Origin: Conexibacter sp.
Lineage (GTDB): Bacteria; Actinomycetota; Thermoleophilia; Solirubrobacterales; Solirubrobacteraceae
Direction of reading: 5' to 3'
Assembly (NCBI GenBank): GCA_025964325.1
Contig: JAOPZA010000144.1
Span: 1 to 46,456 of the forward strand
Length of the DNA stretch: 46,456 nucleotides
Program-made: the position numbers and the translations under genes
The notes under the pieces: generated by a model
Told to the model about the DNA's origin: nothing
Seen by the model: only the letters and a program-made list of their open reading frames with translations
Database searches by the model: none
Shown here: positions 6,804 through 46,197 of the stretch, piece by piece
Layout of the letters: each line of letters starts with the position of its first letter
How positions within the stretch are numbered: the first letter of the stretch is position 1

Positions 6804-7313
6804 ATGCACGTCACCCGCACCGTCGTGAGTCCGCGCCCGACGCCCCTGCCGCCGTTCGAGCGCGTCGTCGAGCTGCACGGCCCGGCCGTGCTGCGCCTCT
6901 GCGTCGCCCGCCTCGGCCCGGTCCGCGCCGACGACTGCTTCCAGGAGACGATGCTGGCCGCGCTGCGCGCCTACGACCAGCTGCGCGACGCGGACGCGAT
7001 CCGCTCGTGGCTGCTCTCGATCGCGGCCCGCAAGGCCGTCGACCTGCATCGGACCCGAGCGCGCGAGCCCGTTCCGGTCGACGACGTCGAACCGCTCGCC
7101 GGCGGCGCCGAGGCCGTCGTCTTCCGCGACGAGGCGCTGTGGGAGCAGGTGCGCGGGCTGCCGGACAAGCAGCGGCAGGCCGTCACGTTGCGCTACCTGG
7201 CCGACCTCTCGTACCCCGAGATCGCGGCCGCGATGGAGATCGCCGAGCCGGCCGTGCGGCGCAACGTCTTCGAGGGCCTGCGGCGACTGAGAAAGGAGAT
7301 CGCGACCCGCTGA
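6804..7313 (+). CDS. ECF-type RNA polymerase sigma factor
   Basis: The 169-residue protein has only sigma regions 2 and 4. Region 2 includes DDCFQETMLAALRAYDQLRDADAIRSWLLSIAARKAVDLHR, and region 4 the helix-turn-helix LPDKQRQAVTLRYLADLSYPEIAAAMEIAEPAVRRNVFEGLRRLRKE split over about 7150-7300. No anti-sigma factor gene follows; instead the stop overlaps an alkyltransferase gene (TGATG), suggesting control of a DNA-alkylation response. ATG 6804 was chosen because it leaves a short basic N-terminus; the 160-bp leader upstream holds small GC hairpins (around 6679-6692 and 6762-6774). Confidence 0.88.
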   Translation: MHVTRTVVSPRPTPLPPFERVVELHGPAVLRLCVARLGPVRADDCFQETMLAALRAYDQLRDADAIRSWLLSIAARKAVDLHRTRAREPVPVDDVEPLAGGAEAVVFRDEALWEQVRGLPDKQRQAVTLRYLADLSYPEIAAAMEIAEPAVRRNVFEGLRRLRKEIATR

Positions 7314-7990
7314 TGACCTCACAGGATCCCGCCGCCGACCGTCCTAAGGACATGAACGAGATCAACAGCAACCAGAGTGACGAGCTCGCGCTCGCGGCGG
7401 CGCTCGGCGCCGTCAGCGGGCCCGGTCCGGCCGCCTGGTCGCGGGTCCGCGAGGAGCTCGCGCGCCGGGCCGAGGCGGAGGGGCTGATCGACGTCGCCTA
7501 CGAGCGCCACGACTCGCCGCTCGGCTCGATCCTGCTCGGCGCGACCGCCGAGGGGCTGGTGCGCGTCGGACTTCCGGCCGAGGACGAGGACGCGGTGCTC
7601 GACGAGCTCGCGCGGCGCGTCTCGGTGCGGGTCCTGCACGCCTCGCGGGACGCGCTCACGCACGCCCGCCGCCAGCTCGACGAGTACTTCGACGGTGGCC
7701 GCCGGACGTTCGACGTCGCGCTCGACTGGCGGCTCACGCGCGGCTTCCGGCGCGAGGTGCTGCGAGCGACGGCGCAGATCCCCTACGGGCAGACCGCCTC
7801 CTACAAGCAGGTCGCGACGCGCGCCGGCAGCCCGGGCGCGGTCCGCGCGGCCGGGACCGCGCTCGCGACGAACCCGCTGCCGATCGTCGTGCCCTGCCAC
7901 CGCGTGCTCCGTAGCGGTGGCGCGCTCGGGGCCTATCGCGGCGGGCCGGAGGCGAAGGCGCAGCTGCTGACGCTGGAGCGGGCGGGATGA
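7313..7990 (+). CDS. ogt: Methylated-DNA-protein-cysteine S-methyltransferase with N-terminal extension
   Basis: The 225-residue protein repairs O6-alkylguanine by suicidal transfer to the Cys of IVVPCHRVLRSGGALGAYRGG. The helix-turn-helix part (IPYGQTASYKQVATRAGSPGAVRAAGTALATNPLP) is canonical. About 60 residues precede the alkyltransferase fold (QSDELALAAALGAVSGPGPAAWSRVREELARRAE). They do not belong to the family and might interact with the co-transcribed sigma factor. Its end (CTGGAGCGGGCGGGATGA) resembles the ends of the repeat units that follow, and its stop overlaps the first small ORF. Confidence 0.92.
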   Translation: MTSQDPAADRPKDMNEINSNQSDELALAAALGAVSGPGPAAWSRVREELARRAEAEGLIDVAYERHDSPLGSILLGATAEGLVRVGLPAEDEDAVLDELARRVSVRVLHASRDALTHARRQLDEYFDGGRRTFDVALDWRLTRGFRREVLRATAQIPYGQTASYKQVATRAGSPGAVRAAGTALATNPLPIVVPCHRVLRSGGALGAYRGGPEAKAQLLTLERAG

Positions 7991-8076
7991 CTCGCGCAGA
8001 GCGCTCGCATGCCGTGTGCGAGCTCGCCCAGGGGCTCGCTCGCACGGCCCAGGGGAACCTGGAGGGAGCGGCATGA
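7987..8076 (+). CDS. Small ORF, 29 residues, repeat copy 1
   Basis: The ORF runs from the ATG overlapping the first ogt stop (ATGA) to a TGA that overlaps the next ATG. The peptide begins MTRAERSHAVCELAQG and ends RTAQGNLEGAA; it is amphipathic, has one Cys and no signal sequence. A GGAGCGGG stretch precedes it. I know no family for it. Because 86 is not a multiple of three, the ORF is preserved only by the exact stop/start overlap, which argues that reading through the chain is meaningful. Confidence 0.6.
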   Translation: MTRAERSHAVCELAQGLARTAQGNLEGAA

Positions 8077-8162
8077 CTCGCGCAGAGCGCTCGCATGCCG
8101 TGTGCGAGCTCGCCCAGGGGCTCGCTCGCACGGCCCAGGGGAACCTGGAGCGGGCGGCATGA
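8073..8162 (+). CDS. Small ORF, 29 residues, repeat copy 2
   Basis: It encodes the same peptide as copy 1 except for one residue near the end (NLERAA instead of NLEGAA). Its ribosome site GGAGGGAG lies at the end of unit 1, and it is coupled on both sides by ATGA overlaps. The changed bases make its end match the tail of the upstream ogt gene (CTGGAGCGGGCGG), a hint that the unit end derives from that gene. Confidence 0.6.
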   Translation: MTRAERSHAVCELAQGLARTAQGNLERAA

Positions 8163-8248
8163 CTCGCGCAGAGCGCTCGCATGCCGTGTGCGAGCTCGCC
8201 CAGGGGCTCGCTCGCACGGCCCAGGGGAACCTGGAGGGAGCGGCATGA
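8159..8248 (+). CDS. Small ORF, 29 residues, repeat copy 3
   Basis: It encodes a peptide identical to copy 1. Its stop overlaps the ATG of the second alkyltransferase gene, and the unit supplies that gene's ribosome site (GGAGGGAG, spacing about 5). Number and integrity of the copies would therefore influence how many ribosomes reach the downstream gene, if coupling is real. Confidence 0.6.
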   Translation: MTRAERSHAVCELAQGLARTAQGNLEGAA

Positions 8249-8787
8249 GCAAGCCAACGAGATGGACGATCTACGAGAGCCCGTTCGGGCCGCTCGCCCT
8301 CGAGGCGAGCGCGCGCGGCCTGCGCGGGCTGCACTTCCCGGGCGACGGCGGCCACCTCCACGTGCGCGACCGTCGACCGCTCGCGCACGCGAGCGGCATC
8401 CTCGCGGACGCGGCGACGCAGCTGGCCGCGTACTTCGCGGGCGAGCGCGTGGCGTTCGAGCTCGAGCTCGACCTCGGCGGCACGCGGTTCCAGCGCGACG
8501 TCTGGGAGCAGCTGGCGCAGATCCCGTACGCCACCACGATCAGCTACACGGAGCTGGCGCAGCGCGTCGGCCGGCCCGATCGCGTGCGCGCCGCCGGCGG
8601 CGCGGTTGCACGGACCCCGGTGCCGATCGTCGTCCCCTGCCACCGCGTGGTCGCCGTGAACGGGGCGCTGACCGGCTATCGCGGCGGTCTCGAGCGCAAG
8701 CGGGCGCTGCTCGACCTCGAGGCGCGCGGCGCCGCCGGCCTGCCGCCGGAGCCGACCCGGGCGTTCCGCCAGCTCGCGCTCCCGTGA
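8245..8787 (+). CDS. ogt: Second methylated-DNA-protein-cysteine S-methyltransferase
   Basis: The 180-residue protein has the complete fold and the active Cys in IVVPCHRVVAVNGALTGYRGG, with the Asn-hinge/helix segment IPYATTISYTELAQRVGRPDRVRAAGGAVARTPVP. It differs strongly from the upstream copy (no N-terminal extension, different first domain), so the pair is not a recent duplication; the two may prefer different alkyl adducts. Translation depends on the ribosome site inside repeat unit 3. The C-terminal tail (PPEPTRAFRQLALP) extends about 20 residues past the fold. Confidence 0.93.
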   Translation: MSKPTRWTIYESPFGPLALEASARGLRGLHFPGDGGHLHVRDRRPLAHASGILADAATQLAAYFAGERVAFELELDLGGTRFQRDVWEQLAQIPYATTISYTELAQRVGRPDRVRAAGGAVARTPVPIVVPCHRVVAVNGALTGYRGGLERKRALLDLEARGAAGLPPEPTRAFRQLALP

Positions 8788-24435: not shown

Positions 24436-24443
<8 letters not shown>

Positions 24444-25104
24444 GGACGAGCGTGCCGACGAGCGGCCGGTCCAGGGTGCCGGCGTGAACGAGGGCGCCCG
24501 CTCGTCGGGCGACGAGCCGCCGCGTGCGGGCCCCGGCGCGAGCGAGGGGACCCGCTCGTCGGGCGACGAGCCGCCGCGTGCGGGTCCCGGCGCCGGCGAG
24601 GGGACCGGCTCGTCGGGCGATGCGCCGGCCGAGCGCGCCGCCGAGGAGCAGCAGACGCCCGAGCTGGCGGCCCGCGTCGCGCAGCTCGAGGATCGCTACC
24701 GGCGCGCGCTGGCCGACCTCGACAACTACCGCAAGCGCTCCGCGCGCGAGATCGAGCGGCGGGTCGAGGACGCGCGCGAGGGGCTGCTGCGCGACTGGCT
24801 CGACGCGGTCGACAGCGTCGAGCGTGCGCTGCAGATGGACGCGCCGGAAGGCGGGCTGCAGCAGGGGCTGCGCGCCGTGCTGGAGCAGATGGAGACGACG
24901 CTAGCGCGCCACGGCGTGACGCGGATCGGCGCCGCCGGCGAGCCGTTCGACCCCGAGCGCCACGAGGCGATCGCGGTGCGCGAGACCGGCGACGTGCCGG
25001 ACCGCACGGTGCTCGAGGTGATGCGCTCCGGCTGGGCGGTCCGCGGCCGCGTGCTGCGGCCGGCGCAGGTCGTCGTCGCGCGCGCACCGCAGCCGGCGAC
25101 CTAG
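24436..25104 (+). CDS. grpE: Nucleotide exchange factor GrpE
   Basis: The 222-residue protein has a coiled-coil ([53 protein letters not shown] in parts from about residue 75) and the beta domain ([38 protein letters not shown]). GTG 24436 was chosen: a GCGGAG site lies 7 bases upstream and it overlaps the dnaK stop by 8 bases; an in-frame ATG at 24421 is the alternative. The 70-residue N-terminal arm consists of 18-residue repeats (see the repeat entry). It accelerates ADP release from DnaK. Confidence 0.95.
24487..24648 (+). repeat. 54-bp in-frame direct repeats in the grpE N-terminal arm
   Basis: Units at 24487-24540, 24541-24594 and, degenerating, 24595-24648 encode 18-residue repeats of the form [18 protein letters not shown]. 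The first two differ by only a few bases. The encoded arm is acidic, Gly/Pro-rich and presumably disordered; it precedes the GrpE coiled coil and is absent from typical GrpE proteins. Recent slippage or unequal crossover is the simplest origin. Confidence 0.9.
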
Positions 25105-44152: not shown

Positions 44153-45289
44153 GTGTCAGTCCTCGACGAGCTGCCGACGACCGTCGCCACGGTCGTCCGG
44201 CAGCAGATCGCGCCCGCGGCCGCAACGCTCGACCGCCGGCGCGCGTTCCCCAGCGACAACCTGCGAGCGCTCGCCGAGGCCGGCGCGCTCGGACTGCTCG
44301 TGCCGGTCTCCCACGGCGGCGCCGGCGGCGGCCTCGAGGCGCTGAGCGCCGCCTGCGAGGAGATCGGCGGCGCCTGCGCGTCCACCGGGATGACGTTCCT
44401 GATGCACTCCGTCGCGGCCGCGACGGCGGCGAGTGACGCGCCCGCCCACGGGCGCGCCGCCGAGCTGCTGGCCGGGATCGCATCCGGCGCCCTGCTCGGC
44501 ACGCTCGCCTTCAGCGAGCGCGGCACCGGCGCCCATTTCTACGCGCCGGAGCTGCAGGCGGTCCACGAGGAGGGACGCGTCCGCATCTCGGGCCGCAAGA
44601 GCTTCGTCACCTCGGGCGGTCACGCCGACGTCTATCTGGTGCTGGTCCAGAGCGACGAGACGGAGGGGCTCGACTGCTACGTGGTGGAGCGCGACGCGCC
44701 GGGCGTGAGCTTCGACGGCGCCTGGGAGGGACTCGGCATGGCCGGCAACGCGAGCGTCGCGATGCAGCTCGATGACGTCGCCGTCGACGCGGACGCGCGG
44801 ATCGGCGCGCCGGGCGCCGGCGCCGAGCTCGTCTTCGGCGTCGTCGCGCCCGTCTTCCTCGTCGGGCTCGCGGCCGTGAACGTCGGGATCGCGGCGGCCG
44901 CGCTCGCGACCGCGACGGCGCACGCCGCCGGACGGCACTATGCCGACGGCAGCGTGCTCGCGGAGGTGCAGGCGATCCAGCACGCGCTCGCCGACATGGA
45001 CATGGCGGTGCGCGCCACGCGCGGCCTCGTCCGCGAGGCGGCGCGGCTCGGCGACGCCGACGACGACGGCGCGCTCGTGCCGATCATGGAGGCGAAGGTC
45101 GCCGCGACGACCGCCGCCGAGGCGGTCACGCAGCGCGCGCTCGAGGTCTGCGGCGGCCAGGGTTACACGCCCGCGCTGCCGATCGCGCGCCACCTGCGCG
45201 ACGCGCGCGCGGGCGCCGTGATGGCGCCGACGAACCTGGTCCTGCGCAGCTGGATCGGCAAGGCGCTCGCCGGGCTCCCGGTCCCATGA
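44153..45289 (+). CDS. Acyl-CoA-dehydrogenase-fold flavoprotein
   Basis: The 378-residue protein has the family layout: N-terminal helical domain (FPSDNLRALAEAGALGLLVPVSHGGAGGGLEALSAACEEIGG), middle domain (LAFSERGTGAHF, ISGRKSFVTSGGHADVYLV, GLGMAGNASVAMQLDDV) and C-terminal helices ending with the CGGQGYTPALPIARHLRDARAGAVMAPTNLVL segment. The usual glutamate base position and CoA contacts are not evident, and the neighbours encode sulfur-type proteins, so a SfnB/DszC-like oxygenase role is possible. GTG 44153 follows AAAGGAAG. Its stop overlaps the next ATG. Confidence 0.85.
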   Translation: MSVLDELPTTVATVVRQQIAPAAATLDRRRAFPSDNLRALAEAGALGLLVPVSHGGAGGGLEALSAACEEIGGACASTGMTFLMHSVAAATAASDAPAHGRAAELLAGIASGALLGTLAFSERGTGAHFYAPELQAVHEEGRVRISGRKSFVTSGGHADVYLVLVQSDETEGLDCYVVERDAPGVSFDGAWEGLGMAGNASVAMQLDDVAVDADARIGAPGAGAELVFGVVAPVFLVGLAAVNVGIAAAALATATAHAAGRHYADGSVLAEVQAIQHALADMDMAVRATRGLVREAARLGDADDDGALVPIMEAKVAATTAAEAVTQRALEVCGGQGYTPALPIARHLRDARAGAVMAPTNLVLRSWIGKALAGLPVP

Positions 45290-46197
45290 GCCGCGAGGAC
45301 GACCTGATCACGGTGGGCGCCGTCGCCTACCACCCGCGCGTCGTCACGATCTGGGAGGCGTTCCGCGCCTACTTCGCCGACGCCGGCGCGCCGACCGACT
45401 ACGTGCTCTACTCGAACTACGAGCGGCTCGTCGAGGCCGTGCTCGGCGGCGAGGTCGAGATCGGCTGGAACACGAACACGGCGTTCGTCGCGCTCGAGCG
45501 GCGACTCGGCCGCGAGGCGCGGATCCTCGGCATGCGCGACCTCGACGCCAGCTTCGCGAGCGTGCTCGTGACACGCCGCGGCGAGGCGTTCGCCGACCCG
45601 CGCGAGCTCGCCGGCCGCCGGCTCGCGCTCGGCAGCCGCGACTCCGGGCACGCGGCGATCCTGCCGCTGCACTACCTCCGGGAGCAGGGTCTGGATGCGG
45701 CCGCGGCCTGTGAGCTGGTCCGCTTCGACACGGACCTCGGCACGCACGGCGACACCGGCGACTCCGAGCTGCGCGTCGTCGAGGCGGTCGCCGGCGGTCG
45801 CGCCGACGCGGGGGCGCTGGGCGACGCGACGTGGGCGCGCTTGCGCGCCGAGGGCCTGCCGGTCGCGGCCGAGCTCGAGCTCGCGTGGCGCTCGCCGACC
45901 TACTGCCACTGCAACTTCACCGCGCTGCCGTCGCTCGACGCGGCGCGCGCGCAGCGGTGGCAGGCGGCGCTGCTGGCGATGGATCACGACGACCCCGCGA
46001 TGCGCCAGCCGATGGACCTCGAGGGCGTCCGGCGCTGGCTGCCCGGCGACCGCGACGGCTACGCGTCGCTGATCGCCGCCGCGGAACGGCTCGGCCTGGG
46101 GCCTCGGGTTCCCTCGGAAGAACTCGCGCAACGGAAGCCGAGCCCCTGGGCGAGGCTTTCGCGCGCTCGTTCTTCCACCGGGGACGTTGCGCGATGA
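45286..46197 (+). CDS. PhnD/SsuA-like periplasmic-binding-fold protein without signal peptide
   Basis: The 303-residue type 2 binding fold opens LITVGAVAYHPRVVTIWEAFRAYFAD, then VEIGWNTNTAFVALERRLG, RDLDASFASVLVTRRGEAFADPRELAGRRLALGSRDSGHAAILPLHYLREQGLD and VVEAVAGGRADAGALGDATWARL, as in phosphonate/phosphite binding proteins. No signal peptide or lipobox, so it is probably cytoplasmic, perhaps an enzyme or sensor. It is sandwiched between a flavoprotein and a TusA-like gene with ATGA overlaps. The YCHCNFTAL segment holds two Cys. Confidence 0.82.
   Translation: MSREDDLITVGAVAYHPRVVTIWEAFRAYFADAGAPTDYVLYSNYERLVEAVLGGEVEIGWNTNTAFVALERRLGREARILGMRDLDASFASVLVTRRGEAFADPRELAGRRLALGSRDSGHAAILPLHYLREQGLDAAAACELVRFDTDLGTHGDTGDSELRVVEAVAGGRADAGALGDATWARLRAEGLPVAAELELAWRSPTYCHCNFTALPSLDAARAQRWQAALLAMDHDDPAMRQPMDLEGVRRWLPGDRDGYASLIAAAERLGLGPRVPSEELAQRKPSPWARLSRARSSTGDVAR

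Follow-up and report, generated by a model that had tools for sequence, protein, structure and literature searches.

Three apparent mini-genes between two alkyltransferase genes of Conexibacter sp.: tandem copies of a dispersed double-hairpin element found at gene ends

MIRUs (mycobacterial interspersed repetitive units; Supply et al. 1997, according to the account of that work in PMC12548453) are short interspersed repeats, often in tandem, that lie between co-directional genes. They are apparently mobile, insert at start codons and contain an ORF coupled at -4 nt, with a probably minimal effect on the genes concerned (PMC12548453); at senX3-regX3, for example, 77-bp units stand in tandem (PMC4213456). 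REPs (GTAG/CGTC super-families) are, in turn, high-copy palindromes at gene 3' ends, between tandem and between convergent genes, which may supply stop codons and of which some are intragenic (PMC3733652). Rickettsia palindromic elements are palindromic repeats placed in frame within protein-coding genes, and they have been described as encoding a conserved peptide (PMC10969869).

The locus considered here lies in a stretch of 46,456 nucleotides from Conexibacter sp. (contig JAOPZA010000144.1; this whole stretch is referred to as the window), in which an ORF for an ECF-type sigma factor (6804-7313) stands 5' of two genes of the O6-methylguanine methyltransferase family (PF01035 and PF02870), ogt1 and ogt2. 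Between these two genes there are three units of 86 bp each, read directly from the sequence and also recovered by TRF on the window (7973-8248, period 86, match 96%). Units 1 and 3 show no difference, and unit 2 carries two substitutions (G>C at position 79 and A>G at position 81, in unit numbering). ATGA is found at 7987, 8073, 8159 and 8245, and each unit contains a 29-codon ORF, from ATG to TGA, that overlaps the next ORF by these 4 nt; likewise, the TGA of ogt1 overlaps the ATG of unit 1, and the ATG of ogt2 overlaps the TGA of unit 3. A GGAGGG/GGAGCG stretch lies upstream of each following ATG, and the encoded peptides read MTRAERSHAVCELAQGLARTAQGNLE(G/R)AA. The initial annotation, which described complete ORFs chained to one another and to both ogt genes by ATGA, with a ribosome site ahead of each next ORF, is borne out by the letters. 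The features are given below, including the matches to R1, a covariance model built from a 20-copy alignment whose copies were chosen partly by hand.

7352 to 7990, plus strand: ogt1, O6-alkylguanine-DNA alkyltransferase (Pfam PF01035/PF02870 and gene call).
7987 to 8072, plus strand: unit 1, with the 29-codon ORF 7987-8076 (sequence, TRF, R1 match 7984-8048).
8073 to 8158, plus strand: unit 2, with two substitutions and the ORF 8073-8162 (sequence, TRF, R1 match 8070-8134, 93.3 bits).
8070 to 8099, plus strand: hairpin A of unit 2, GGCATG-A-CTCG...CTCG-CATGCC (fold, covariation).
8101 to 8132, plus strand: hairpin B of unit 2, GTGCGAG-CTCG...CTCG-CTCGCAC (fold, covariation).
8135 to 8158, plus strand: variable tail of unit 2, with a GGAG ribosome site, GGCGGC and then ATGA (sequence).
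8159 to 8244, plus strand: unit 3, with the ORF 8159-8248 (sequence, TRF, R1 match 8156-8220, 93.3 bits).
8245 to 8787, plus strand: ogt2, second alkyltransferase (Pfam PF01035/PF02870).
46083 to 46179, plus strand: a further copy of the element in the window (R1 match, 42.4 bits).

Hairpins A and B are present likewise in units 1 and 3, which also carry equivalent tails.

The initial annotation knew of no such repeated mini-cistron in a DNA-repair operon. About a hundred copies are, however, located at unrelated genes, and MIRUs are already known as coupled intercistronic repeats (PMC12548453); the units of the array do not belong to a repair operon in particular: a dispersed element stands here in three copies in tandem. 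A blastn search with the array against its own genome finds a dozen further places (70-93% identity), and a single unit used as query has matches in relatives too. The element is dispersed in this genome (G000) in about 75-110 copies, mostly at gene ends: R1 detects 84 at E<=1e-3 and 110 at E<=1, and 73 are counted with stricter filters. The same model finds 63 copies in G035, a genome in a single contig, and 5-39 in five of six congeners; tandem copies occur in G035 and, in the genome studied here, at C115, C80 and C54. With stricter fast filters, R1 places the element in 8 of 25 genera of the family (30 of 146 genomes), and the 295 other genomes sampled from the phylum gave no match. The further copy in the window continues the frame of the ORF 45286-46197 and forms its C-terminal tail, which ends in ...AAERLGLGPRVPSEELAQRKPSPWARLSRARSSTGDVAR*; this copy is divergent, with extra sequence inside hairpin B, and another ORF follows close behind. 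A different tandem repeat of the window (24456-24627, period 54, 3.2 copies, 86%), located in the N-terminal part of the ORF 24436-25104, has a period divisible by three and finds no more than short, weak matches in the rest of the genome, and on these grounds seems to be a protein repeat of the ordinary in-frame sort.

As regards its structure, the unit folds as two hairpins (from folding and from reading the copies by eye) in a fixed order, each with an outer stem that varies, an internal loop (CTCG...CTCG) and, innermost, a short stem-loop, so that the layout of the element is a paired double hairpin of ~65 bp plus a short tail whose sequence varies from copy to copy. The covarying stems are GGCATG/CATGCC and GTGCGAGC/GCTCGCAC. 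In the 20-copy alignment 90% of the cells are paired and 12 pairs are altered on both sides, a number that none of 500 shuffles reaches, and 63 further distinct copies, taken independently from three other genomes, give 264 double-change cells vs 74 after shuffling (0/500). The proposal that each unit can fold into hairpins was, then, right about there being two of them, but not about the stems, because those that covary differ from the GCTCGCA/TGCGAGC pairing put forward; this alternative pairing is missing, by eye, in GGAACC-type copies and looks incidental. Searching Rfam with the array and with 12 loci holding other copies gives no meaningful match, on which ground a known structured RNA was rejected. 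Mispairs in the stems, summed over the alignments with the edge pair excluded, are G-U in 61 cases and A-C in 56; strand-specific RNA pairing was rejected on the absence of a G-U excess, and the near-equal counts lend no support to selection on the sense RNA. The copies at convergent gene ends (for instance, G000 C232:2215-2280 and C31:9130-9195) often form a distinct subtype, with hairpin B reading TTGCGGGTGTTCGC...GCGAAACCCGC; they are untranslated, begin at the stop codon and may be a form akin to a terminator or to an mRNA end.

The element is positioned at stop codons in the four genomes in which its placement was scored. Gene junctions, as well as gene starts, were called with a purpose-written codon-usage gene caller, according to which 99 copies lie between tandem genes on the same strand as these, 13 between tandem genes but reversed, 22 between convergent genes and 3 between divergent genes; in operons, the following gene usually starts 10-26 bases past the modelled part. 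One copy (G000 C189:10975-11041, L128) occurs, in frame, within an ORF of 707 codons for a membrane protein, in a Gly/Pro-rich linker. In another place (G000 C18:22800-22851, L011) a partial second copy gives a possible start and the first codons of the downstream ORF, whose N-terminus resembles, by eye, that of an MFS transporter (MTRAGRSHAERDTTARPGLLLAAVCLGG...).

How the reading frame crosses the element was assessed on the single copies located between co-directional genes <=60 bases away (n=74, four genomes). An ORF that reaches the next start codon crosses 64 of these copies; in 30 of the 64 it is the frame of the upstream gene itself, which thereby gains a fused tail, and in the other 34 it is a mini-ORF that begins at the upstream stop, nearly always with a 4-nt overlap. 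After random deletions of 1-2 nt inside the elements, only 258 of 4440 cases (5.8%) were still bridged, a control that breaks frames by design and tests, therefore, frame and stop placement jointly. The remaining 10 of the 74 copies were scored as unbridged, at least one of them (C29) through a mis-called start codon, while others look real. Relative to the element, the three possible frames are used 35, 14 and 15 times and, because all three are used, different copies give unrelated peptides, such as MTRAERSHAVCELAQGLARTAQGNLEGAA in the array, MSDPTGLGQRPRLRGESSPEARSRAWKATP at C54 and VERSARASRSIGRTRLEARSSGIRKDQR at C74. The codon score per codon is +0.37 for genes (sd 0.08), about -0.1 for the unit ORFs and -0.56 for the fused tails. 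Since three frames are used and the codon usage is unlike that of genes, there is strong evidence that the conserved feature is translational continuity and not the peptide.

The same junction may be found in different states. In the MAG of Candidatus Siliceabacter maunaloa (L167), with the same sigma-ogt1-ogt2 order, ogt1 and ogt2 are joined directly by ATGA; that genome is distant (78% identity in ogt1 and 62% in ogt2) and may instead have lost the element. The initial annotation had singled out homologous loci lacking any ORF in relatives as telling against the mini-genes; L167 is indeed such an empty site, but what it shows is insertion (or loss), and not the absence of a real feature. Two junctions vary between congeners. 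The hisZ-hisG junction holds the element in G002, G003 and G004, of which G002 and G004 read it as a fused tail, and consists of a plain ATGA/GTGA overlap, without it, in G000, G001 and G005; murG-murC contains two tandem units in G035 and a plain ATGA in its congener G014. One junction even combines both modes of bridging, a fused tail in G000 (C34) and a free mini-cistron in G004 (430226). At least 8 junctions are occupied in two congeners, and at some of them the two elements have similarities of 0.91, 0.86, 0.86 and 0.85, vs means of about 0.70-0.74 for random pairs; judging by this resemblance, the highly similar ones have probably been inherited, while the elements at other shared junctions are not so alike.

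Among the known kinds of repeats, the closest are MIRUs, which use the same coupling trick, and REPs. Like the former, the element is interspersed, in tandem at some loci and located between co-directional genes, and 34 of its 74 intercistronic copies are mini-ORFs, most with exact 4-nt overlaps, as in the coupling at -4 nt; the ogt array resembles, as far as the descriptions can be compared, the tandem 77-bp MIRUs of senX3-regX3. Unlike MIRUs, it also has fused-tail and intragenic copies, uses three frames, occurs at convergent ends and forms a covarying double hairpin, and the lineages differ, the R1 matches (fast filters, 295 other genomes of the phylum included) being confined to this family rather than mycobacterial. 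With REPs it shares being a high-copy palindrome near gene 3' ends, but it consists of two unlike hairpins in a fixed head-to-tail order, with CTCG/CTCG internal loops and without the terminal GTAG/CGTC tag (alignments A1-A3), and the systematic bridging by ORFs is a feature of its own. A RAYT-driven REP was discarded because no Y1 transposase (PF01797) was found in the host genus, in G000-G006, by a search that does pick up this family in other relatives and in the control genomes. The likeness to Rickettsia palindromic elements lies in the in-frame insertion (the fused tails and the one internal copy, C189); nevertheless, the element is found mainly at gene ends, in three frames and with peptides that differ. 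The papers searched gave no example that unites a double hairpin, bridging in all frames and two modes.

We consider it likely that the three mini-genes represent a tandem array formed by a dispersed element, similar to both REPs and MIRUs, whose insertions in this family fall at gene ends. If ribosomes could not traverse its hairpins, an inserted element would break the coupling of translation and leave the downstream gene exposed; between coupled genes it would then be tolerated only where the upstream ribosomes pass through it and re-initiate on the next gene. The copies expected to survive are those in frame, either as an extension of the upstream protein or as a mini-cistron overlapping its neighbours by 4 nt, and the peptide made from a unit would be a by-product. 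The triple array probably arose by duplication of one inserted unit and, because each unit has 86 bp (2 mod 3) and is bounded by ATGA on either side, ogt1 and ogt2 stay coupled whatever the number of units, which explains how such an array can stand between them. The initial annotation's ideas of a translational relay and of a recent duplication survive in part, in that the unit connects a stop to a start and one element, copied in tandem, makes up the array.

Other explanations can be weighed against that of a tolerated insertion. Are the three units real? As the genome is a draft of 251 contigs, there is some doubt about the copy number of three, and the identity of units 1 and 3 would suit an assembly artefact hiding a single unit; this is nonetheless very improbable, given that two bases set unit 2 apart, that the junctions at C80 and C54 have two diverged copies each and that tandem pairs are also present in the single-contig G035 (2363530/2363619 and 4499104/4499190). 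Is there, instead, a functional peptide of 29 residues made in three copies from the ogt operon, as was initially suggested? The ORFs are complete, with ribosome sites and overlaps, and the same frame is open, by eye, in other GGCATGACTCG-type copies. However, the remaining copies use all three frames, yield unrelated peptides and are often fused to the upstream gene, the C-terminal third differs between copies, the unit ORFs score below genes in codon usage and have no Pfam match, and the operon exists without units in L167. A peptide gene was rejected on frame and codon usage, and we regard this possibility as extremely remote.

A third possibility, less than probable but to be taken seriously, is that the element is more than tolerated, acting as an RNA or DNA module at gene ends that is useful to the host and tunes operon expression (through mRNA stabilisation, ribosome pausing or the rate of reinitiation). 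The strong orientation bias, the placement at stop codons and the heavy covariation speak for it, and work cited in PMC12306157 reports that translation is lowered by E. coli REPs close to stop codons. The junctions occupied in two congeners, some with elements far more alike than random pairs, point in the same direction, as similar elements at orthologous positions across species would also fit a retained function. Against it, the balance of G-U and A-C mispairs gives no sign of selection on a sense-strand RNA, the range is patchy (8 of 25 genera) and the same junction may or may not have the element inside one genus.

As a tentative proposal, which we hold as possible rather than probable, a so far unrecorded family of strand-oriented double-hairpin elements might mark the stop codons of ~100 genes per genome in one Thermoleophilia-type family, serving as a portable translational relay that combines a covarying structure, an open frame without peptide conservation and copies that, at one junction, can change from mini-cistron to C-terminal tail or back. 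A practical caution is that ORFs of this kind should not be annotated as small proteins. The empty, fused and mini-cistron states of one junction in congeners provide, besides, natural variants for testing coupling and the tolerance of strong hairpins. What looked like mini-genes becomes evidence for the spread of a mobile-looking repeat through operons, made possible by maintaining translation in any frame and in two modes.
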